A DNA stretch of 64,000 nucleotides, from positions 1 to 64,000 of the forward strand of contig CALMUT010000277.1 in NCBI GenBank assembly GCA_937872925.1, read 5' to 3'. Source of the DNA: an uncultured Myxococcales bacterium (GTDB taxonomy: Bacteria > Myxococcota_A > Polyangia > Polyangiales > Polyangiaceae). Under the pieces are notes generated by a model. It was not told the origin of the DNA. It did not search any database and saw only the letters and a list, made by a program, of their open reading frames with translations. Made by a program: the position numbers and the translations under genes. Within the stretch, counting starts at the first letter, position 1, and each line of letters begins with the position of its first letter. This document shows, in pieces, positions 51,587-64,000 of the stretch.

Positions 51587-52881
51587 GCCCGCGCGCCGAG
51601 CTCACCACGCTACGAGACGGGAGCGACGCCTTCGTCGCCACTCTGAAGCAACTCGAACAGCGCGGCGAAGGGGATCTGAGCCGGGTGGAACCGCGCGTGC
51701 GCGCGATCTTGGATAGCGTGCGTGCCCAGGGCGACGACGCCCTGCGCCAATGGGTCCAGGAGCTGGAAAGCCGGACCCTCGGGCAGATCATCGAGAGGAA
51801 CTACGGCGGAAAAGCCGCCCTCGACGGGCTATCCCAGGACGTGCGCGGCGCGATGGAGCACGCCGCGAAGCGTATTTCCAACTACCACGAACGCCAAATG
51901 CGCGACCTGGTCGGCTTCGATCTCGAAGCCGAGGGCGTACGACTGACTAGTCGCGTTACGCCACTAGCCCGGGTGGGTGTCTACGCACCTGGCGGCAAAG
52001 CGCGCTACCCGTCTAGCGTATTGATGAGCGCGCTGATCGCTCGGGTGGCCGGCGTAAACGAGATCATCGTGGCCACCCCGGACGCTTCTGCGGAGGTACG
52101 CGCCGCATGTCACTTGTCCGGCGTATCCGCAATCGTCAACGCCGGTGGCGCGCAAGCAATCGCCGCGTTGGCCTATGGCACAGCGTCCGTGCCACGCGTG
52201 GACAAGATCGTGGGCCCGGGCAACATCTATGTCGCCGCCGCCAAGCGCTTGGTCTTCGGTCAGGTGGACATCGACAGTATCGCGGGGCCAAGTGAAATCT
52301 TGGTCGTCGCGGACGCTTCTGCAGACCCGGAACTATTGGCAGCGGACCTGCTGTCCCAGGCGGAGCACGACGAGGCGGCCTATCCACTGTTGCTGAGCAG
52401 CGAGGCCAGCCACGTCCAGAGCGTCCAACGGGCTCTCGACGCGCAGTTGGAGGGTCTCCCCAGGAACGCCATCGCCAGAGCGTCTTTGACTAACAATGGC
52501 TTCCTGCTTCTGGTGGAAAACCGCGATCGCCTGGTGGAGATCGCAAACATGCTCGCCGCCGAGCATGTTGCACTGCACGTCGACCGTCCCCGGGACATGG
52601 CCAACGCCATCCTGCGCGCGGGGGCGCTGTTCATCGGGCCCCAGACGCCCGAGGCCGCGGGGGACTACCTGGCTGGCCCCTCCCATGTGCTGCCCACCGG
52701 CGGCGCGGCGCGCTACGCCGCGCCCCTGGGCGTGTACGACTTCGTCTCGCGCTCCTCCCTGATCGAGTACTCCAGGAGCGCCCTTCAGGCCCACGGGCCG
52801 GACATCGCGAATTTTGCCCGGGCCGAAGGCCTTGAAGCTCACGCCCGTGCCGTCACGCGACGCACGTCACACACGGAGTGA
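51583..52881 (+). CDS. hisD: Histidinol dehydrogenase
   Basis: A 432-residue zinc/NAD enzyme catalysing the last two oxidations of histidine biosynthesis. Signatures: ARVGVYAPGGKARYPSSVLM, AYGTASVPRVDKIVGPGN, and the active-site region SIAGPSEILVVAD followed by LLSQAEHDE, the latter giving the zinc-ligand His. C-terminus HVLPTGGAARYAAPLGVYDFV. GTG 51583 overlaps the SMI1/KNR4 stop. No other his gene is nearby. Confidence 0.96.
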   Translation: MSPRAELTTLRDGSDAFVATLKQLEQRGEGDLSRVEPRVRAILDSVRAQGDDALRQWVQELESRTLGQIIERNYGGKAALDGLSQDVRGAMEHAAKRISNYHERQMRDLVGFDLEAEGVRLTSRVTPLARVGVYAPGGKARYPSSVLMSALIARVAGVNEIIVATPDASAEVRAACHLSGVSAIVNAGGAQAIAALAYGTASVPRVDKIVGPGNIYVAAAKRLVFGQVDIDSIAGPSEILVVADASADPELLAADLLSQAEHDEAAYPLLLSSEASHVQSVQRALDAQLEGLPRNAIARASLTNNGFLLLVENRDRLVEIANMLAAEHVALHVDRPRDMANAILRAGALFIGPQTPEAAGDYLAGPSHVLPTGGAARYAAPLGVYDFVSRSSLIEYSRSALQAHGPDIANFARAEGLEAHARAVTRRTSHTE

Positions 52882-52918
52882 CGCACTGCGTCATCGGTGT
52901 GCGACAATGTCGTTGCGA

Positions 52919-52972
52919 GTTAGTCCTCTAACGGTTAGGTTCCCCGCCGCCTTCCCGCCTGGGGGGAGTTAG
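52919..52972 (+). promoter_or_regulatory. Clustered GTTAG motifs, candidate activator binding sites
   Basis: GTTAG occurs at 52919-52923, 52934-52938 and 52968-52972, and its reverse complement CTAAC at 52928-52932; the latter two form the palindrome CTAAC-G-GTTAG (52928-52938). They lie about 60-115 bp upstream of the expected sigma-54 start site, the usual place for enhancer-binding-protein sites. A second short palindrome CGACA-A-TGTCG is at 52902-52912. Confidence 0.4.
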
Positions 52973-53007
52973 AACATAAAACCGCAAAAAACAGCTTTGC
53001 GATGTTC

Positions 53008-53022
53008 TGGCTCGGCTCTTGC
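53008..53022 (+). promoter_or_regulatory. Candidate sigma-54 promoter of the metalloprotease gene
   Basis: TGGCTCGGCTCTTGC: the -24 GG (53009-53010) and the -12 GC (53021-53022) are separated by exactly ten bases, and eight of the nine most conserved bases fit TGGCACG-N4-TTGC. Initiation is expected near 53034, leaving a leader of about 90 nt with AAGGAG (53113-53118) before the ATG at 53125. An A-rich stretch (52977-52990) lies just upstream. Confidence 0.6.
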
Positions 53023-53124
53023 CTAAGTGGTGTCGGCTCAGATTCTGTCCTCGGGAGGCTGCGCGCTTTGGCGCACCGTCCGACGGCATAGGGATGACAA
53101 AGCAACTTGTTTAAGGAGAACGGC

Positions 53125-56100
53125 ATGGACCTGAGGTGGACCAGAAGGCTTGCAATGGGCCTTTCACTCGTCGCTCTGAACGTGGTCGGCTGCGCTGAAG
53201 AGCGCGATCCGATCAACCGCGTTCAGGCTGACGCACTTTCCAAGGATTTCTTCGTCGGCAAGCTGGCCGACCCCTCGGACGATCCAGAGTTCTTCTGGCG
53301 CAACTTCGTCGTCGACGGCTCCGAAGCCCAGTCGATGGTGGGCATCGGTTCCTGGGGCGCGGTTGACCGCATCCGTTGGGAAATCACCGAGGACCTGCTG
53401 ATCGCCCGCAAGGCCTACGCCATCTCCGATGGCGCCGACAACAAGGGCAACATCGACAACGGTCCCGCGGACGGCCTGATCATGGCCGCCTACCCGATCA
53501 CGAAGCACTTCGACGTGAAGAAGGCCTACAACCCGCAAACGGGCGAGGACCTGAACATCGTCGAGGAAAACACCTCAGATCGCGTATGGAACCAGCGCAC
53601 GCATATGCGCGTGAACTGGTCGATCAACATCGTCGAGAGCCCCATCTGGTTCGACATGTTCCTCGGCAAGATCTTCGGCGACATCACGGTAACGCCCATC
53701 GCGTACTACGTGAACGACCCGAACCACCCCGATGCGCCGCACTTCGACGCAAAGCAGGGCTACTTCGACATCACGAACAAGTTCTGGGTCGAGCCCGAAG
53801 CAACCTACATGTGGGGCCAGAGCATCCCCGCCTGCATCATCATGGGTCTGTACACCGGCGCCGCCGTGGACAGCTGCGACAAGCAGGAAGCCGTGGTGCG
53901 TAGCTCCTACTGGAAGGTCGACAGCGTGCCGTCAGCGGCCGACTTTGAGCCCTTCGAGAACACCTACGCCAACCTGGACATCATCGGGAACCCCGGCGGT
54001 CTCGGCGACAGCTTCCAGGTGGGCATCGTGACGCCACCGCGCATCGATTGGGATCCGCAGTACGGCTACACCGACGCCAGCATGAAGCGGCACATGCACG
54101 TGCACAACATCTGGAAGCAGAGCCACACCCTCACGGGTAGCTGCACCACGGACGCACAGTGCGGCGGCGGCGCGTGTTTGCCCGTTGCGGACGGTGGCGG
54201 CGCCAAGGCCTGCACCATCCCGTGTAACTCAGACAACCAGAACGAGGGCGGCGTTGCTGGCACCAACCAGCAGTGCGAGCAGGTGACCCAGAGCCTCGTC
54301 GGCAACGGTGGCAAGGTGGAGACCATCCAGCTGCAGCCCGGCTCCCAGTGCAGCACCCGCAACTGGTGCACCCTGCCCGTGCGCAGCCGTACCGTGAAGC
54401 CCATCGGCTACTGGATGAACAAAGAAACCCCGGCAGAGCTCTCGGATCCCTTCCAGAGCAACGACCCGGAGTTCACCAGCAAGAACGGTGAAGACGTCCG
54501 CCAAGGCCAAGGCCCGACGGAAAACATGATCGAGAGCTGGAACCAGCTCATGCGCTTCTCCGTCGCCAAAGCCCGCGAGGTGGAGTGCCGCCGCACCGGT
54601 GGCGAGCGCCAAGCGTGCATGGATCAGTACTTCGAAACCACTGGCGCGCTGCAAGCGAACCAGGAAATGGTGCAGTTCGGTGGCTGGTCGATCGATCAGG
54701 TCAAGCCGATGGAAGACGTCGTCGTCACCTGCCACAACCCTGTGCGTAGCTACGACAACCCCATCTGCGGCGAGCGCGGTTACGAAGCCCGCGTCGGCGA
54801 CATCCGGCACAACTTCCTCTACTACTGGCCCTACGCCTCCCGGGCGCCCTGGGGCGGTATCGCCAACTGGAACGCGGATCCCCTCACGGGCATGATCCTC
54901 GGCGCGTCGGCCACGACCATGGGTCGCTCGGCCACTTACGCCGCAGCCATGGTGCGCGACATCATCATGGTGGCCAACGGCGAACTCACCTTCGACGACA
55001 TCACCGACGGCACGCCGGCGCAGCTCTACGAGCGCCGCCTGCAGAACGGCCACACCCCGCAGACCTTCACCAAGGCCGAGCTCAAGCAGCGTCTCGATAA
55101 TATCGATCCGCTGCATGCCGCGGCCCAGGTCGCGGGCAAGCCCCTCGCCGGTGCGACTCCCAGGGAGAAAACCCACGAGTTGCTTGAGATGCGCAACAAC
55201 CGCATTGCCGGCCTCGGCCCGGCAAGCACGTCGCATCTGGAGTACGAAGCCATCGCCGACAAGGTGCGTGGCTCCGTATACGAAGCCCAGATGATCACCC
55301 CGAACTGGGTGCTCGACGCAGCCGGTATGAACCCGAAGGACACCAAGCTCTCGGACGTGATGGACATCGTGTCCCCGCTCCGCGGCATGGATCACGCTCA
55401 GACGGAGTCCCTGAAGCAGCTCATCGACCTGCGCATGCAGGCGCGCGGCGTCTGCTTCCCGGACATCTACGCCGGCAACGTCGGCAACATGGACGTGCAG
55501 GGCGTCGCCAAGTTCTTCCTCCAGAAGTACAGCGACGAAGCCATCATGGCGAATTTCCCGGACCTGGCGGGCGCGGACGCGCTGACCATCTCCCGGAAGC
55601 GCGCCGACCTGATCTACACGCAGCTGTGGAAAGAGACCTACAAGGGCATTCAGCTCCACGAGGTCGGTCACTCCCTGGGCATGTTGCATCAGTTCGCCTC
55701 GAGCTACGACAGCTTGAACTTCCTGCCCCAGTACTGGCAGCTGCGCGCCAACGAGACCGCCCTCACCGGCGAGGCCTCCACAGGCGCAGCGGCCAACTGC
55801 AAGGGCAACCCGACGCAGGACGGCAACGCTTGCATGGGTCCGCGCTACCTCGATCCGGAGACGGACGACGAGCTCGGTCAAGGCAATGAGTCGCGCCCAG
55901 GCATCTCCTACTTCGGCCACACGTCGACCATGGAGTACCAGAACGAGCGTTTCTTCGAGACGGTCGGCCTGGGTCAGTACGACATGCTCACCATGAACGT
56001 GCTGTACGGACGTCTGCTCCAGTCCTTCGACCGCGACCGGGGCTACTCGGACGCCGAGACAGCGCCCTTCGCGTATCGTAACTGGACGCAGCTGACCGAA

Positions 56101-57894
56101 GACAACTTGGTGGTCTGGTCCAACCCAGACATCATCAAGGACATCAAAGTCACCTCTGGTAAGGGCCAGCCCCTGCCCGGCGGCGGCAACGGTCTGCCCG
56201 GCCAGAACATCTTCGGCACCGGAGAGTTCCTGCAAGGCATGCACTACACGGAGCAGGCTCGACGCCTCAAGGCCTTCGATCCCGCCCGCTGCCGTGAAGC
56301 CACGCAAGAAGAGAAGGACAAGGCCGAGTGGCGCATCGTGCACGGCAAAGTCTGTGCAGCTCCGCCCAAGGACTACGCCTTCTGGCGCGATTTCGAGAAC
56401 GGCACCCCGCCGTCCAATGAAATCAGCGAGCCGCTGCTCAAGTGGCGCGTAAACCCGAACGTTTCGACGGCTCCGGGTGCCATTCGCTGGCCCTTCCGCT
56501 GGGGTGTGACGAGCAACTCGTATCCCCACACCAACCCGTCGGACGCGGGTGCGGACATCTACGAGGTCACGAAGTCGACCATCGAGAAGTTCGATTACCA
56601 GTACCCCTTCACCTACTTCCGCCGGAAGAACCGTGACTGGGCCTACTTCAACATCCCGTCCCGCGTTTCCCGTGGCTTCTATGAGCGCCTCCGCGCGTTC
56701 CACTGGAGCATGGCCATCGACGCGGGCCGCCTGGGTGCTCTGATCTCGCCTGACGAGCCCTTTGCAACCCAGTTCGGCTTCAGCCCGAAGGACGTGGACG
56801 AAGTCAACGCTGGCATCTACAAGATTTTGGGTGAGTCCGATGACTGGGGTCGTCCCCAGGCCATGGCCGCCAACGAAATCTTCGGTGCCATCACCCGCGC
56901 CTTCTTGATGCCGCAAATCGGCAACTACGGCACGTGTGACGTCGCGCCGGGCGCGACCACGGCCCTCCTCGACGCGGACTGCGGTAGCGGCGGCAACAAG
57001 TCGCTCATCGTGGACGCCTCGACGGGCCGCTACATCGACCCGGACTTCAAGGGCGACGCAGACGGCGGCGGTTCCTGGGACTACCAGAACTACGTCAACT
57101 GGGCCGGTTACACCTTCGAGAAGTCGGATGCGTCCCGTGCGCTCACCGACGGTCGCGCGGTGTTCTTCACCATCTCCCGCGAGAACTACCTCGATGGTCG
57201 TAACGTCAACGTGAACTTCCGTACCGACATGCCGCAGGCCATCGACCGCCTCTTGGGTGGTGTGTTGTCCTCGGACTTCGAGACGGTTGCACCCTACGTT
57301 GTCGGCGGAAGCGCTATCGAGACGTCCCCGGTGTTGACCACCAACCTGTTTGGAACCAACCCGACTCGTCCCGCTGGCGCCCGCGCTCTGTTCCCGAACG
57401 TCGGTTACAAGCAGCAGGTGGGCACCTTGGTGTTCGCACACATCTTCGCTCGCTTGAACGGCGACCTGACCCTGTCGAATAAGATGCGTATCTGGATCGA
57501 CGGCCAGGCTTCCCCCGGAGCGAACATCCCGGACGCACAGCAGGCCCGCTTCTACAACCCAGAGAGCGGCTTCACCTACATCGCCAAGAAGTACGGCGAC
57601 GATGTGGTGATGGGCAAGACCGTCGACAAGGGCATCGCCTCGCGCATGCTGCGCACGGCGAACTTGCTCTTGGCGCGGGCGTACGAAGTTGATGGTGGGG
57701 ACAAGAACCCGACCCTCGACCAGTACGGCGCGGTCAACGTCATCCTTGACGCCAACGGCCAGCCCATCCTGCGCAGCGCCGCCTACGCCAACGAGTACCG
57801 CGCCTTCGTGGGACTCTTGGACGCGGCGACCCAGCTGAGCAGCATGATCGGCTACGGCCCGTTCAATGGCTGGGGAGGCATCGACCTGAACTAA
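53125..57894 (+). CDS. Very large zinc metalloprotease lipoprotein
   Basis: A 1589-residue protein; ATG 53125 has a consensus AAGGAG (53113-53118) six bases upstream. A lipoprotein signal with lipobox VVGC (Cys near 23) is followed by a long domain with repeated aromatic/Asn-rich segments, a Cys-rich insert (about 331-400), and the zinc site HEVGHSLGMLH (845-855), a full HExxHxxGxxH metzincin-type motif. STMEYQ near 935 is a possible Met-turn. The C-terminal 600 residues look like further beta/alpha domains without a membrane anchor. Codon use is strongly C-ending, consistent with high expression. Probably an outer-membrane or secreted protease; related to large bacterial zincins of unknown target. 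Confidence 0.85.
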   Translation: MDLRWTRRLAMGLSLVALNVVGCAEERDPINRVQADALSKDFFVGKLADPSDDPEFFWRNFVVDGSEAQSMVGIGSWGAVDRIRWEITEDLLIARKAYAISDGADNKGNIDNGPADGLIMAAYPITKHFDVKKAYNPQTGEDLNIVEENTSDRVWNQRTHMRVNWSINIVESPIWFDMFLGKIFGDITVTPIAYYVNDPNHPDAPHFDAKQGYFDITNKFWVEPEATYMWGQSIPACIIMGLYTGAAVDSCDKQEAVVRSSYWKVDSVPSAADFEPFENTYANLDIIGNPGGLGDSFQVGIVTPPRIDWDPQYGYTDASMKRHMHVHNIWKQSHTLTGSCTTDAQCGGGACLPVADGGGAKACTIPCNSDNQNEGGVAGTNQQCEQVTQSLVGNGGKVETIQLQPGSQCSTRNWCTLPVRSRTVKPIGYWMNKETPAELSDPFQSNDPEFTSKNGEDVRQGQGPTENMIESWNQLMRFSVAKAREVECRRTGGERQACMDQYFETTGALQANQEMVQFGGWSIDQVKPMEDVVVTCHNPVRSYDNPICGERGYEARVGDIRHNFLYYWPYASRAPWGGIANWNADPLTGMILGASATTMGRSATYAAAMVRDIIMVANGELTFDDITDGTPAQLYERRLQNGHTPQTFTKAELKQRLDNIDPLHAAAQVAGKPLAGATPREKTHELLEMRNNRIAGLGPASTSHLEYEAIADKVRGSVYEAQMITPNWVLDAAGMNPKDTKLSDVMDIVSPLRGMDHAQTESLKQLIDLRMQARGVCFPDIYAGNVGNMDVQGVAKFFLQKYSDEAIMANFPDLAGADALTISRKRADLIYTQLWKETYKGIQLHEVGHSLGMLHQFASSYDSLNFLPQYWQLRANETALTGEASTGAAANCKGNPTQDGNACMGPRYLDPETDDELGQGNESRPGISYFGHTSTMEYQNERFFETVGLGQYDMLTMNVLYGRLLQSFDRDRGYSDAETAPFAYRNWTQLTEDNLVVWSNPDIIKDIKVTSGKGQPLPGGGNGLPGQNIFGTGEFLQGMHYTEQARRLKAFDPARCREATQEEKDKAEWRIVHGKVCAAPPKDYAFWRDFENGTPPSNEISEPLLKWRVNPNVSTAPGAIRWPFRWGVTSNSYPHTNPSDAGADIYEVTKSTIEKFDYQYPFTYFRRKNRDWAYFNIPSRVSRGFYERLRAFHWSMAIDAGRLGALISPDEPFATQFGFSPKDVDEVNAGIYKILGESDDWGRPQAMAANEIFGAITRAFLMPQIGNYGTCDVAPGATTALLDADCGSGGNKSLIVDASTGRYIDPDFKGDADGGGSWDYQNYVNWAGYTFEKSDASRALTDGRAVFFTISRENYLDGRNVNVNFRTDMPQAIDRLLGGVLSSDFETVAPYVVGGSAIETSPVLTTNLFGTNPTRPAGARALFPNVGYKQQVGTLVFAHIFARLNGDLTLSNKMRIWIDGQASPGANIPDAQQARFYNPESGFTYIAKKYGDDVVMGKTVDKGIASRMLRTANLLLARAYEVDGGDKNPTLDQYGAVNVILDANGQPILRSAAYANEYRAFVGLLDAATQLSSMIGYGPFNGWGGIDLN

Positions 57895-57908: not shown

Positions 57909-57966
57909 GACGCGCCGCAACAGCGGCGCGTCGCGAAGGGCCCGGACCACATGGTTCGGGCTTTTT
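57909..57966 (+). terminator. Double-hairpin rho-independent terminator
   Basis: First hairpin: GACGCGCCGC-AACA-GCGGCGCGTC (57909-57932), a perfect 10-bp stem. Second: GCCCGGACC-ACAT-GGTTCGGGC (57940-57961), nine pairs with one G-U, followed by TTTTTGCTTTTG. It begins 15 nt past the metalloprotease stop, and the next gene lies on the opposite strand. Confidence 0.9.
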
Positions 57967-58104
57967 GCTTTTGTGCTTTAGCGACGCCACAGGGGAGAAC
58001 ACAGAGACGCCCCTCGGGTTGCCCCGGGGACGAGCCCGGGCGCAATACGCGAGATGAGTGCGGCCGCGACGCACCGCGCCCCGACCCAACCAAACTCAAG
58101 GCCG

Positions 58105-59127
58105 TCAGCTCGCGACTTGCAAGTAGCCGCGCTTGATCAGGGACTGCACGATTTCGGCGGTCTGCAGATCCGTGACCTTGCTGCGATCGAAGAGCGAAGC
58201 GAGCGTCGGTGAATTGAGGGCGGTCTGGAGCAGATCCAAATGCGTCGGCTCGAGCTCGTGTAGCGGGGCCTCCAAGGGAGTGCGCAAGATGAGACGAGAC
58301 TCTACCGGCGGCAGTCGGTCGAGCAACGCATTGAGTTCGTCCTGCTGCCGAAAGCCTTCCATGAGGCCTTCCTGGACGCTCATGTTCATGGGCTCTGCAA
58401 ACTCCTGCTCGGAGGGGGGCTCGAGTTCGAACTGACCCTGTTGGTAGGTCAGCATGCGGTAGAACGCCTTCGGAGGCGGCAGGTGCTCCACGCCTTCGAT
58501 CACTGCGAAGGTGAGGATGCCCTTGTCTAGGTAGATGCGACCGACTTGGTCCCCGCTGCGCAGCACCAGGACGCCGGTCTTCCGCGAGGTGCCAAAGAGC
58601 TGCAGCAGATCCGGCAGCGGGATTTCTTCGAGGTTGCCGCTCATGCGCGGCGCCTCGCCACGGACTTGAGCCTCACGTTTCGCAGCCACGCCTTCCAAGT
58701 CGCTCTTGGATGAGGGCGCGTCGCCTGCGACGGTAACGACTTTGAGAATGCTGGTGCCCACCAAGACGCGATCACCCTCGCGCAGCACGGCGTTCTGGAT
58801 CTTCTCGCCGTTGACGAACGTGCCGTTGGTGGACCCGAGGTCTTGAATCGAAATCACACCGCCACGCATTTCAATCTGCGCGTGTCGCCGGGACACCATC
58901 TCCTCGACCAGCACCATGTCGAGCTCACTGGAGCGGCCGATGACGATCGGACGCGCCTCTTCGATGGGGAACTCCCCGCCCTGGTACTTCCCAGAGATGA
59001 ACCGCAACGCGAGTCGCGCACTACCAGCGTGGACCATGCCGAAAATGTCGCCGCTAAGCCCGTGGGCTTCGGCAGGCTCTCCCGTTTTCGGATGGTGAAG
59101 CTCCACAAGCGCCTGGGTCGCAGCCAT
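58105..59127 (-). CDS. FHA and DUF4388 domain signalling protein
   Basis: A 340-residue cytosolic protein. The FHA domain lies at about 45-125 (GRSSELDMVL, SRRHAQI, GSTNGTFVN), a phosphothreonine-binding fold. A DUF4388 domain occupies about 165-270 (GNLEEIPLPDLLQLFGTSRKTGVL, then GRIYLDKGIL), a module common in myxobacteria and often found with receiver or kinase domains. A C-terminal helical tail ends it. ATG 59127 is preferred to a TTG at 59157. Likely an adaptor downstream of the Ser/Thr kinases of this organism. Its promoter seems to lie at 59258-59287. Confidence 0.85.
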   Translation of the reverse strand: MAATQALVELHHPKTGEPAEAHGLSGDIFGMVHAGSARLALRFISGKYQGGEFPIEEARPIVIGRSSELDMVLVEEMVSRRHAQIEMRGGVISIQDLGSTNGTFVNGEKIQNAVLREGDRVLVGTSILKVVTVAGDAPSSKSDLEGVAAKREAQVRGEAPRMSGNLEEIPLPDLLQLFGTSRKTGVLVLRSGDQVGRIYLDKGILTFAVIEGVEHLPPPKAFYRMLTYQQGQFELEPPSEQEFAEPMNMSVQEGLMEGFRQQDELNALLDRLPPVESRLILRTPLEAPLHELEPTHLDLLQTALNSPTLASLFDRSKVTDLQTAEIVQSLIKRGYLQVAS

Positions 59128-59257
59128 TGGCGGCGGACACGTACTCGCAAGCGACAAGCGGTTTTCGGGACGCAGGAATTGGCATCGGGTGCTCGTGGGC
59201 GAGATGGGTCCTACCCCGGGGGCGGCGGGCAGTCAGCAGGGCTCTGTTTTGCCTAAA

Positions 59258-59354: not shown

Positions 59355-61463
59355 TCAGGCCGGTTTGGGTTCGGGTCCGCTGGCGGAACTGATGCTCGGC
59401 AGCTCTTTACGGCCTGCCCGGGCGGGCAATTGGGCGGGCAGAACCACGGTGAAATTGGCGCCCTGCCCTGGCTGGGAGTTGACCTCGATGCGGCCTCCCA
59501 TCTCCTCGACCATGCGCTGGCTGATCGCCAGGCCGAGACCGGTCCCCCGGTCTTTGGTGGTGAAGAAGGGCACAAACAAATTGCTCAGCACCTCGGGCGA
59601 AATGCCGGGACCATTGTCCTTGACGCTGATCTCCACCCATTTGGCGTCGGAGAGCCCCAGGCGATCCCGCAGGGCGGTGCTGACCCAGATGCGCGACGCG
59701 CCGCTATCTTGAGCGTTGAGCACCAAGTTGATCAGCACCTGACGCAGTTGTTCGGCGTCAGCTCGCACGGCGGGCACGTCGTCCGCGAGATCCACGTCCA
59801 TGCTGGCAGCGTCCCCTTCGGTGCGCAGAACCTGCAGTGTGCGGGTGACCACCGCATTGGCATCGATCACACCCGGGTTGCCCTTGGAGGGGCGCGCATA
59901 GTCCAACACCGAACCGACAACTCGATCGAGGCGATCAACCTCCTCCAGGATGATCCCAATGAACTCGCGCGCGTTGGGCTCAAGCTCGGTTCCGTCCTCA
60001 GGATCCCCCAGTAGCTGCGCCGCACCCTTGATCGCGCCCAGAGGGTTCTTCACCTCGTGGGCAAGACCGGCAGCCATCTGCCCCAGCGCCGCCAGGCGGT
60101 CACGCTCCTGTAACCGACGGTACTGCTTGGAGTTCTCCACGACGACGGCGATCTGCACGCAGAGCGCGTCCAAGAGCGCGACATCGTCGGGCGAAAACGC
60201 GTCCCGCACGCGGTCGTCTACGACCAACAGCAGACCAATCACTCCCTTGTTTTCGCCCCGAATGGGCGTCACGACGCTGTCCTTGAACGCCGCCAAGACT
60301 TCCGCGGCCGCCAGCACACGCTCGTCCGCCTCCAGCGCGGTGGTGTTGCGCAACTTGCGATGCTCCAAGATGTCGTCTGCCAATTCCTCGATAACCAAAG
60401 GGCCCTTTTCCAGGCGGTCCAGTAGGGGCCGCGCCACGGACCCGTCGATGCGCGGAGGAGCCGGCGGTCCGAAAGAAAGCCCCAGCTCGAAGTCCTGGCC
60501 GATAGGATCGCGCAGGTACAAGGCAGCGCCGGTTGCGCGACGCGATGCCTCTAGCTCCGTCATCACCACCTGGACCATTTCGCTGACTTGGAGCACGTGC
60601 ACCAGCTGTCGCCTGGCGTTGAGCACGGCGCGCTCCAAGTCGACGCGCTCAAGGAAAAACGCGCGATGGATGTACTGCTCGACCTTGTCGCGTAGGGGCT
60701 CGAACAGCACCAGGATGACGATCGATGCCAAGATCGCGTTGAGGTACATGGTGGAAAAGCCACCCACCAACACCACAAAGACATAGAAGATCCCGGCGAG
60801 GCAGAACGCCAAGGCCGTCGACACCACGAGCTGGCCCAGGATGTCGTAGAGATCGACCAGTCGCTCTCGAATCATCGACTCGGAGAGCATGAACAGAAAC
60901 ACGATGGCAAGCACGGCGCCCACCGGTGGCAGCGGAGCGCCGATGAACCAGAGGAAATCCGCCAGGGAGAACAGCGCCGCGGAGGCACCGGTGAACACCA
61001 AGAAACGCACGCGACGCTGCGTGGCGCGCGACTGACTGCGTTCTCCACGCACGGCCAAGCTGTACAGACCAGCCGCAAAAAGGCCGAACACGTAGAGCAT
61101 CACGGCGCCACGCACGAGCCCGTGCCGATGCTGCGGCGAAAGCACCAATACGAGCATGGGCACCAACAACACGCCGGCAACGCGCACCAAGGTCGAGCGC
61201 CGCTCGAGTCGCGGCACGATAGCCTCGAAGAGATTCACGGCCAGTTGGGGCAGAAGCACCGCCAAGATCGCGGTGAAGCGCACCCACACGTCGGCCTGCA
61301 TGAAGTGATAGAGCCACTGCGCGATGTACCAGAGACCGATATCCGCAGCGAAGGCGGCGAAGAACAAATCTGCACGCCGGCGCCGACCGCGCAGCAGGAA
61401 CGAGCCGGCAATGGCCAACGCGAGCGCGCCGCAAAACAGGCTGGTGCGCGTGCGAAGATCCAT
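59355..61463 (-). CDS. NtrB-type sensor histidine kinase with 7TM-like and GAF domains
   Basis: A 702-residue kinase. N-terminal half: about seven to eight helices (residues 5-260), a membrane sensor region of 7TM type. A GAF-like domain follows (~300-440; ATGAALYLRDP, then VVTPIRGENKGVIGLLLVVDD). The phosphoacceptor helix has GLAHEVKNPLGAIKGAAQ with His469, followed by N-box NLVLNAQDSG, DNGPGISPE and GTGLGLAI. The HEVKNPL box is characteristic of NtrB/AtoS-type kinases that act on sigma-54 response regulators. No receiver-domain regulator lies next to it. Ends in a short Pro/Ser tail. It lies 62 nt after a small lipoprotein gene. Confidence 0.9.
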   Translation of the reverse strand: MDLRTRTSLFCGALALAIAGSFLLRGRRRRADLFFAAFAADIGLWYIAQWLYHFMQADVWVRFTAILAVLLPQLAVNLFEAIVPRLERRSTLVRVAGVLLVPMLVLVLSPQHRHGLVRGAVMLYVFGLFAAGLYSLAVRGERSQSRATQRRVRFLVFTGASAALFSLADFLWFIGAPLPPVGAVLAIVFLFMLSESMIRERLVDLYDILGQLVVSTALAFCLAGIFYVFVVLVGGFSTMYLNAILASIVILVLFEPLRDKVEQYIHRAFFLERVDLERAVLNARRQLVHVLQVSEMVQVVMTELEASRRATGAALYLRDPIGQDFELGLSFGPPAPPRIDGSVARPLLDRLEKGPLVIEELADDILEHRKLRNTTALEADERVLAAAEVLAAFKDSVVTPIRGENKGVIGLLLVVDDRVRDAFSPDDVALLDALCVQIAVVVENSKQYRRLQERDRLAALGQMAAGLAHEVKNPLGAIKGAAQLLGDPEDGTELEPNAREFIGIILEEVDRLDRVVGSVLDYARPSKGNPGVIDANAVVTRTLQVLRTEGDAASMDVDLADDVPAVRADAEQLRQVLINLVLNAQDSGASRIWVSTALRDRLGLSDAKWVEISVKDNGPGISPEVLSNLFVPFFTTKDRGTGLGLAISQRMVEEMGGRIEVNSQPGQGANFTVVLPAQLPARAGRKELPSISSASGPEPKPA

Positions 61464-61525: not shown

Positions 61526-61912
61526 TCAGCCGCCGTTGGACGTCTTGCCGTCGCTACCGCTGGCAGCGCCGGATTCCGTGCCTTGCTTGGTCTCCGCTTC
61601 TTCGGAGCCGTTGCCGGCGCCGCTGGAACTCTCGGTTTCGCTCTCCCAGGGATAGGGGGAGGGGCCACCGGGGCCGCTTTCTTGGGCGATCCACGGGTAG
61701 GGCGAGGGGCCGTTGGGATCGTCGTCAGAGCTCGACAGCACCGGGTCCCGCATGGGGTCGAGGGCGACTGGCTGTTCTCCGGGCCCTTCCTCGGGCTCCC
61801 CGGTGACACTGAGATCGTATTCGTCTTCTTGATAATCCGGGTCCACCAACTGCGCGGAGCAACCGCCCAGAGCGAACAACGGAATTGCGAGGTACAGGAT
61901 GCGTCGCATCAC
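61526..61912 (-). CDS. Small lipoprotein with GPSPYPW repeats
   Basis: A 128-residue protein with a lipoprotein signal (LFALGGCS, cysteine near 18). The mature part is acidic and Gly/Ser/Glu-rich, with two copies of GPSPYPW (about 69-75 and 83-89) and no cysteine besides the lipid anchor. It probably is a disordered surface or periplasmic protein; I do not recognise a family. ATG 61912 overlaps the sigma-54 activator's stop by 4 nt, so both are translated from the same message, and the sensor kinase follows. It may belong to the sensory system. Confidence 0.65.
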
Positions 61913-63957
61913 GATGCCTCCTCCGTCGAGAGCTCGTATTGTTTTACGAGCTGGCTAAGTCGCGGCCGCTTCATGCCAAGAAGGCTCGCGGCGCGAGTGA
62001 TGTTGCCCCCGGTCTCGGCAAGAGCCCGGGCGATGCACTCTTTTTCGATACTGCGTTTCAAGTCAGAAAGGCTGGTCCCGCCGTGGCGGATTTCGCGGTA
62101 CACGACGCTGCTGACGGGATCCTGATCACAGGTCGACAGATCGCTCAGCATTTCCGGGGCGGGTGGCAGCGTCGAGCGGCGCACAGACTCCGGGGGCGCG
62201 ATGCTGGGCTCCGAAGCCACGCGACGCAGTGCCTCTACGTGCTCCACCAAGTCGGAGACGCCGATCACTTCGCCGTCGCTGAACAGCGAAGCCGCGCGAA
62301 GCGCATTCTCTAGCTCCCGCACATTGCCGGGCCAGCGGTAGCGCACGATGAGCTGAAGCGCCTCGGGCGAGACGGACTTGCACGGCTCTTCGCGCTCCTT
62401 GGCGACGCGGACGAGCAGCGCGTCCACCAGCTGGGGTAAGTCGTTGCTGCGCTCACGCAGAGCCGGGATCTCCAGAGCAATCCCAGCGAGGCGGTAGTAG
62501 AGATCTTCGCGGAACTGCCCCGCTTCGACCATCTTCTTGAGGTCGCGGTTCGTCGCGCAGACAATGCGTACATCCACGGGGATAGACGCCGTCCCCCCGA
62601 CACGCTCGATGCGCCGCTCTTCGAGGACGCGCAACAAAGCCACCTGGGTGCGCGGAGAAATATCGCCAATCTCGTCGAGGAACAACGTGCCGCCGCTGGC
62701 GCGCTCGAAGCGGCCGCGCCGACGGGACGTGGCTCCCGTGAAGGAGCCCTTTTCGTGGCCGAATAGCTCGGAGAGCAGCAAGCTCTCCACCAGCGCCGCG
62801 CAGTTGACTTTGACGAGGGGGCCACTGCTGCGCCGGCTTGCGTTGTGCACTAGCTCTGCGATCAGTTCCTTGCCAGTGCCACTCTCGCCAAGAATGAGCA
62901 CGGTGGCATCCGTGGGTGCCACCCGTGCCGCCGCCGAAAGCAGGGAGCGCACCGCTGGGTCGCGGCCGACATAGCTGCGCTCCGACTTGGTCGCGGGCTT
63001 GCGCAGCGCCGAAGCCGCGGCAAGCACCGCTTTCGGGACGGGCATGCTGGCGTTCTCCAAGCGCGCCAAGCGCACCAGGTCCGGCCGCGCCAGGTAGGCG
63101 TCGCGCAGCGTGCCCGAGAGCCCGTCTGCAATGTGATCCCGCAGCGCGGCGGCAAGGCGAGTGTGCTCCGCGGCTGTGGATTCGTCGCTGTTGGCGAGGG
63201 CAACCTCCGCCGCAGTCAGATGGGCCTCGCGGCAAAGCTCTTCGTCTCCGCTCTGCCGCGCGGCGTCGACGGCAGCGTCCACCAGGTCCTCGGCGGGTTC
63301 GCCGGAGGCGCGTGCGATGAGCGCCCGTAGCAATGCCACCTCCGCGCGGTCGAATACTGAAGCAGACAGCGCCTCGGCCGCGTCCGTGGCCTTCGCTGCT
63401 CGGGCCAGCATGCCGTCTTCAAGGGCTACGCGTGCCCCAAGGCGGTGGCACTCCCCAGCTTTGTCGCCGTCTGAAGCGTGCGCGGCCGCTCGCAACGCGG
63501 CGCCAAGCTCGCGCTCGGCATCCAAGGTCCGTCCACGAACCAAATGCAGGCGCGCCGTCGCGAGGGAAAGCTCCGTGAGCCGAGAGGGAGGAGCGCCGGC
63601 ACCGAGTGCTTGACGCCCGAAGCGCAACCCCTGTTCCGCGTGGTCGATGAGACCCAAACGCAGCCGCAACTCGACAAGGTTGGCGACGTCGCGCGCAAAG
63701 CCGAGGCGGTCGCCCAGGCGTCGGTGCACACTGGTCGTTTGCTCCAAGAGCTCCAGCCCCTTGGCGTGTTCGTGGCGCTCGATGGCAAGCACTGCAAGGT
63801 TGGAAAGCGCGAATGCGACCGCCCGCGGTTCGCGGCGCGCTTTTCCGTCGCTGAGCACGCTCTCGAGCAGTGACTGTGCTTCGTCTCGGCTGCCCCGGGA
63901 CAAGAGCGCGATGGCGCGATTGACCCGTGCGCGCAGCTCCGACGTGCTTGCGCCCAT
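61909..63957 (-). CDS. Sigma-54-dependent transcriptional activator with TPR-like input domain
   Basis: At least 682 residues. The N-terminal 320 residues are helical repeats of TPR type (repeated A/L/E patterns of about 35-40 residues), instead of a receiver domain. The AAA+ domain has Walker A GESGTGKE (~356-363), the sigma-54 contact motif GSFTGA (~403-408; usually GAFTGA), Walker [10 protein letters not shown] and R-finger region. A Fis-type HTH ends it (residues 640-682). It should activate sigma-54 promoters in response to a protein-protein signal. The ATG at 63957 has GAGG eight bases upstream, but the same frame has no stop up to the window edge (64000), so a longer N-terminus outside the window cannot be excluded. 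Confidence 0.88.
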
Positions 63958-64000
63958 GCCGATGGCCTCGCAAACGTCCGTGGCGAAGTGCCGGTCCGCT

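Follow-up and report, generated by a model that had tools for sequence, protein, structure and literature searches.

In the PEP-CTERM regulon, single-gene units coding for exported proteins are preceded by a sigma-54 box and, separated from it by 63 nt on average, a further motif upstream (PMC1569441, Haft et al. 2006). The profile of motif and sigma-54 box agreed with that of PrsR, PrsK and PrsT (PMC1569441). Nla28 of Myxococcus xanthus uses the half-site CT(C/G)CG(C/G)AG with variable spacing, and its regulon contains more than 100 genes (PMC9765219).

We have analyzed a stretch of 64,000 nucleotides, referred to as the window, from an uncultured Myxococcales bacterium (assembly GCA_937872925.1, contig CALMUT010000277.1, positions 1 to 64,000 of the forward strand). 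The genome of this organism, a polyangial myxobacterium with Polyangiaceae and other Myxococcota as relatives in GTDB, comprises 9.39 Mb in 377 contigs and was probably assembled from a metagenome. The window contains a gene for a large metalloprotease, and the best explanation of its upstream region, to which we give a probability of about 85%, is that a sigma-54 promoter and a phased palindromic enhancer drive this gene, the likeliest activator being the protein coded at 61909-65367.

The protease gene and its upstream region

Positions 47064-65367 of the contig form an old conserved Polyangiales gene block. It codes for a Ser/Thr kinase with AAA-TPR, an APP1-like protein, a SUKH-like protein, HisD, the metalloprotease, an FHA-DUF4388 protein, a GAF histidine kinase, a lipoprotein and a sigma-54 activator. 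The hisD gene ends at 52881 on the plus strand, 243 bp before the ATG of the protease gene (53125..57894, plus strand). The genes beyond the protease lie on the minus strand: The last gene of the run, convergent to the protease, is that of the FHA-DUF4388 protein (58105..59157), and the gene for the membrane GAF-HisKA histidine kinase (59355..61463) belongs to the same run as the lipoprotein gene (61526..61912).

The target of the promoter would be a predicted metzincin-like lipoprotein metalloprotease of 1589 aa. Its residue 23 is the Cys of the lipobox, and the zinc site HEVGHSLGMLH and the Met-turn STMEY are found at residues 845 and 934. A previous reading of the sequence alone (the sequence-only reading) had called it a giant metalloprotease, which agrees with the rest of the family: HEXXHXXGXXH is found in 51 of the 53 members, and HEXXH is present in all 53, as are the Met-turn methionine and a third His. 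Members of this family are common in Polyangiales, with open frames of 1432-1962 aa, often in tandem or in several copies per genome. In Pfam and NCBIfam no family matches the protease over its cut-off, while DUF4953 (Met-zincin) and M66 match it weakly, at the zinc site. The best structural matches of a model of residues 395-1240 (pLDDT 78, pTM 0.83) are ADAM22, mirolysin and ulilysin, with a Z of only about 5, so that the metzincin relationship they indicate is only suggestive. Foldseek gave nothing significant with this model; a model of residues 560-1005 was poor, and its structural comparison gave no useful match.

The gene appears to be a well-delimited unit. Its ATG is preceded by the ribosome binding site AAGGAGA (53113..53119, plus strand), and a double-hairpin terminator (57909..57968, plus strand) follows it, with hairpins at 57909-57932 and 57933-57968 and a T-rich tail after them. 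These features had all been described in the sequence-only reading, together with the isolation of the gene, which we count within the strongly supported core of our reading. Its further suggestions, that the gene is highly expressed and that the protease may be induced in a developmental or predatory state, have found no support here.

Sigma-54 promoters are characterized by GG-N10-GC, with the -24/-12 consensus TGGCACG-N4-TTGC, and transcription, which depends on rpoN, starts 11-12 bp after the GC. The putative promoter TGGCTCGGCTCTTGC is found at 53008..53022 on the plus strand. It reads TGGCTCG-GCTC-TTGC (-24 TGGCTCG, -12 TTGC), with exact GG-N10-GC spacing and 10 of 11 consensus positions matched, and the predicted transcript start is near 53034. 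The window contains one 10/11 match that includes the GG/GC pair, against 1.8 per shuffled window: The promoter string alone is within chance for 64 kb. A single rpoN gene is present in the genome, together with about 54 strong domains of sigma-54 activators.

On the other hand, the cluster of GTTAG motifs upstream of this string is beyond chance. The motif and its complement CTAAC are found at 52919 (plus), 52928 (minus), 52934 (plus) and 52968 (plus), which places them some 62-115 bp before the start predicted above. None of 100 shuffles had four GTTAG in 54 bp, and GTTAGN4CTAAC was absent from 100 shuffled windows. Elsewhere in the window GTTAG is depleted (15 seen, 39 expected), and the whole 9.39-Mb genome contains a single exact copy of GTTAGN4CTAAC, compared with 10 copies of the reversed control pattern.

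The first two motifs form a palindrome with the core GTTAG-TCCT-CTAAC (52919-52932), which together with a conserved G makes up the upstream activating sequence GTTAGTCCTCTAACG (52919..52933, plus strand), a predicted enhancer site at which an enhancer-binding protein would bind as a dimer. The third GTTAG (52934..52938, plus strand) is loosely kept in orthologues, as GGTTAC or GGCTAG, and its role is doubtful. The fourth (52968..52972, plus strand) is not conserved in orthologues and is probably incidental. The four motifs of the sequence-only reading are all present, but we have rejected their interpretation as four independent sites, since only the palindrome pair is conserved. Judging from this conservation, the unit is a single 5-4-5 palindrome, extended to GTYAG-N4-CTRACG. 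Sigma-54 enhancer sites are usually inverted repeats, about 80-200 bp from the start. The palindrome is a phased, conserved inverted repeat. Its centre precedes the T of TGGC by 82.5 bp, and is at about -108 from the predicted start.

The region between palindrome and promoter also contains an inverted repeat, CCGCAAAAAACAGCTTTGCG (52981-53003), which looks like a terminator on the minus strand and is not conserved in the nearest orthologue. An A-rich block (52976-52995) was rejected as a shared element, as it is missing in the closest orthologue, and no common bend site was found in this spacer.

Conservation and spacing in Polyangiales

The sequence-only reading had made its promoter depend on the presence of the GG/GC pair upstream of orthologous genes. 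The promoter has withstood this test: At 78% and 63% protein identity, the two nearest orthologues both retain CGTTGCGAGTTAG-N4-CTAACGG and the -24/-12 boxes, with a diverged spacer between them, and the pair and the palindrome are also retained in dozens of distant homologues. For example, the Minicystis rosea homologue bears GTCAGACCGCTAAC and TGGCCAACTTCTTGC. In the same genome as the window, a paralogue of the protease (C9) carries GTTAATCTCCTAACGG and TGGCCCGACACTTGC upstream; another paralogue (C329) has neither palindrome nor sigma-54 boxes in its upstream region.

These observations bear on another explanation, that transcription of the gene comes mainly from a vegetative promoter or continues into it from hisD, the sigma-54 promoter being minor. 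The end of hisD is indeed only 243 bp away and on the same strand. Nevertheless, no sigma-70-like site was found between hisD and the protease gene in a crude scan, which fits myxobacterial promoters poorly, and the promoter character of the 5' region has been preserved, likewise in the C9 paralogue. We consider this explanation improbable.

In order to quantify conservation, family members were defined by tblastn and those with upstream regions that could still be aligned were grouped, which left 79 independent clusters. Sigma-54 sites with at least 9 of 11 positions are found in 25 of the 79 clusters (shuffle mean 1.7, maximum 6), and sites with 10 of 11 in 13 clusters (0.18 in shuffles). 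The palindrome is present with at most one mismatch in 14 clusters (shuffle mean 0.2, maximum 2), and with at most two mismatches in 34 (shuffle mean 3.7, maximum 9). The consensus over 45 distinct sites is G-T-Y-A-G-N4-C-T-R-A-C-G. Its final G, which was outside the search pattern, is a G in 42 of the 45 sites.

The distance between both elements is also characteristic. In the 27 promoters with both of them, palindrome centres, measured from the T of TGGC, are found at -46.5, from -56.5 to -59.5, from -67.5 to -71.5 and from -79.5 to -84.5, with a single case at -101.5. These bands are about 11-12 bp apart, about one helical turn, and the gaps between them are empty. Phasing in these promoters (R=0.76 at a period of 11.7) was not equalled in any of 5000 uniform or jittered nulls. 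When the phase was fixed on this first set, 23 held-out promoters from other genomes gave V=0.74, with 0 of 20000 nulls as large (p<5e-5); for these values the null is uniform spacing, identical site-and-distance pairs are counted once, and members of the same genus are not fully independent.

One genus (G114-G118, loci L235-L237 and L251) has palindromes at -96.5 to -97.5 and at -105.5 to -106.5, near phase. They sit one or two turns further out.

The family-wide conservation of both elements rules out a chance resemblance as far as sequence can do so. A GC-rich intergenic region might have brought together a sigma-54-like string and a cluster of rare pentamers, and about two 10/11 strings are in fact expected by chance in 64 kb, but family-wide enrichment and phasing in upstream regions which can no longer be aligned make this extremely improbable. 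The palindrome might also be the operator of a repressor or some other regulator, merely overlapping a region regulated by sigma-54: GTYAG-N4-CTRAC is a generic site for a dimer. This would have to be reconciled with a helical phase that stays strict with respect to the -24 box while the distance varies over 50 bp, and with positions where enhancers typically lie and from which a bound protein would be too distant to block the polymerase, so that we find it very hard to accept. The action of the palindrome as an enhancer, together with the sigma-54 promoter, is strongly supported by these comparisons. What they show is a sigma-54 box and a palindrome which are paired, phased and specific to this family. 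The core of the sequence-only reading, a sigma-54 promoter with enhancer sites upstream, is likewise strongly supported. From the phasing, the loop would be short and stiff, and the activator would have to face the polymerase. That the phase is kept in many genera indicates, with a clarity unusual for natural sequences, that this activator must lie on a single face of the helix with respect to the sigma-54 polymerase.

The regulon appears to be small. A search of 183 Polyangiales genomes for GTTAGN4CTAAC followed by a sigma-54 box within 40-70 bp gave 9 matches, compared with a total of 2 for the reversed control pattern. Seven of them precede this protease family, although they are not all independent, as some share one genus; one precedes another exported protein (G066), and one is probably due to chance. 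Since most of the matches lie before the protease family, the regulon seems to be centred on it. The genome of the window gives no indication of a wider regulon: If up to one mismatch is allowed, it contains 13 palindromes, and a good promoter in phase accompanies those at C277 and C9 alone. Twelve of the genome's palindromes have one mismatch, and the one with a phased 10/11 promoter precedes the paralogous protease at C9.

Two other loci may be mentioned. The G066 locus (L064, G066:C399:3164-3241) belongs to another genus and has a perfect palindrome and a sigma-54 box before its different exported protein: It is a possible member of the regulon. In the second (L150, G000:C152:43297), a one-mismatch palindrome lies 44 bp from a 9/11 sigma-54 box and precedes a lipoprotein. 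It is off phase and doubtful.

The candidate activator and its companions

The candidate cognate enhancer-binding protein has 1152 aa. Its gene occupies 61909..64000 on the minus strand and goes on to contig position 65367. The protein has a TPR-like N-terminal part, a sigma-54 AAA+ domain (PF00158, 1.1e-69) with Walker motifs and a GSFTGA loop, a variant of the GAFTGA type, and a Fis-type HTH (PF02954, 35.7 bits, cut-off 22). No receiver domain was found in it. The region of the recognition helix, which starts GNITRAA, is nearly invariant across families of the order, which would fit a DNA site conserved to the same degree.

The profile test, which was run for this protein alone, with a threshold of E<=1e-100 for orthologues across the order, detected an orthologue in 28 of 28 motif-bearing genera, compared with 11 of 19 genera in which the protease is present and the motif absent (Fisher test: p=2.4e-4 when genera are counted, p=1.4e-6 when genomes are). 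The association is weaker with the stricter one-mismatch palindrome (15/15 versus 24/32 genera, p=0.03). The match is not perfect: Besides the 11 genera with an orthologue and no recognisable motif, no full orthologue was found in two motif-bearing genomes, G060 (82% complete) and G130 (64% complete). A third genome, G112, has a weak site, and its activator is seen as a fragment, cut by the contig end.

Of 27 copies of the protease gene located no more than 40 kb from the activator gene, 21 have the motif, compared with 3 of 25 other copies of the same genomes (p=1.7e-6). This comparison is confounded, because the order kinase-APP1-SUKH-hisD-protease-FHA-kinase-activator is an old block and the linked copy is the ancestral one, which weakens linkage as proof of a protease-activator pair. 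Joint natural losses are more telling. Several genomes (G008, G010, G018, G065, G090-G096) retain the protease, while activator and motif are both absent; some of them retain the surrounding genes, including the kinase. In the protease tree, the rows without both activator and motif require at least 8 separate changes.

From this distribution, the TPR-type protein at 61909-65367 is probably the activator of the protease promoter. Promoter and enhancer could be real and the activator another of the approximately 54 enhancer-binding proteins of the genome: The profiles of motif and orthologue do not match perfectly, the old gene block accounts for linkage, and the large number of strong activator domains leaves many candidates. 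We regard this possibility as less likely, given that every motif-bearing genus has an orthologue of the 61909-65367 protein and that several lineages have lost motif and orthologue together, keeping the protease and sometimes the kinase and FHA genes too. Two other ideas concerning the activator were rejected. An enhancer-binding protein is rarely the immediate neighbour of a gene of the protease family, so that this is not a general rule. No palindrome is found within 600 bp upstream of the candidate activator gene, which argues against autoregulation.

In the mechanism we propose, the protease gene would be transcribed from the sigma-54 promoter. An AAA+ enhancer-binding protein, as a dimer or a higher oligomer, would bind GTYAG-N4-CTRACG on a fixed face of the helix. 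Looping of the DNA would carry it to the closed sigma-54 polymerase complex, which would be opened through ATP hydrolysis by the activator. Dimer binding, looping and ATP-driven opening are steps that we infer from what is established about how sigma-54 activators work. The most likely activator would be the TPR-type protein, which is encoded together with the PxPxPW lipoprotein and the membrane histidine kinase.

The lipoprotein has 128 aa and a repeated P-x-P-x-P-W, with two GPSPYPW copies. The start of its gene overlaps the stop of the gene for the enhancer-binding protein, to which it is translationally coupled. No match was found in NCBIfam. A small exported protein with a similar motif occupies the same place in 20 of the genomes examined, and is otherwise dissimilar; examples are KPQPDPW, DPNPLPW, GPTPYPW and MPEPLPW. 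In related families the companion has P-rich variants without W, and no clear candidate was recognised in four cases. In genomes without the activator, no companion protein was found in the longer loci.

The lipoprotein looks like the precursor of a peptide or surface signal, and may be part of the input of the system, for which it is a concrete candidate. A more speculative view, which we consider unlikely, is that activator, lipoprotein and membrane kinase make up a signalling unit of an undescribed kind: After export, the lipoprotein itself or a peptide cleaved from it would report an extracellular state and set the expression of the protease via GTYAG-N4-CTRACG and sigma-54. In such a unit, the controlled protease itself might perhaps cut the peptide from the lipoprotein.

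Comparison with known systems

The protease shares HEXXHXXGXXH and the Met-turn with metzincins such as DUF4953, M66 and pappalysins (ulilysin, mirolysin), but it differs from them in its size, nearly 1600 aa, and in staying below every Pfam and NCBIfam cut-off. Polyangiales are myxobacteria with few genetic tools. For a large family of their secreted proteases, we provide a complete set of regulatory elements which may be tested: DNA site, promoter, likely activator and target. A literature search of open papers found no published description of the GTYAG-N4-CTRACG site.

Nla28 is likewise a myxobacterial enhancer-binding protein, with TGGCACG-N4-TTGC promoters and paired half-sites. In our case, on the other hand, the site is a fixed palindrome, GTYAG-N4-CTRACG, and the apparent regulon is very small. 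Paired CT(C/G)CG(C/G)AG sites of the Nla28 type were rejected, as the conserved site is GTYAG-N4-CTRACG.

The PEP-CTERM system is more similar, and the GAF-HisKA kinase of the window aligns end to end with PrsK. Nevertheless, we have rejected membership in the PrsR/PrsK system, since motif, activator architecture and model scores are different. The PEP-CTERM motif ends in TTTACA, instead of the GTYAG-N4-CTRACG found here, and the targets here are a single metalloprotease family. Unlike PrsR, the candidate activator lacks a receiver domain and has a fused TPR-like region. It scores 329 bits with TIGR02915 (cut-off 502.6), the best stretch covering the AAA+ part only, while the kinase scores 124 bits with TIGR02916 over its full length (cut-off 300). 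In summary, the PEP-CTERM regulon is the closest precedent for the locus we have described, which by analogy would work alike.
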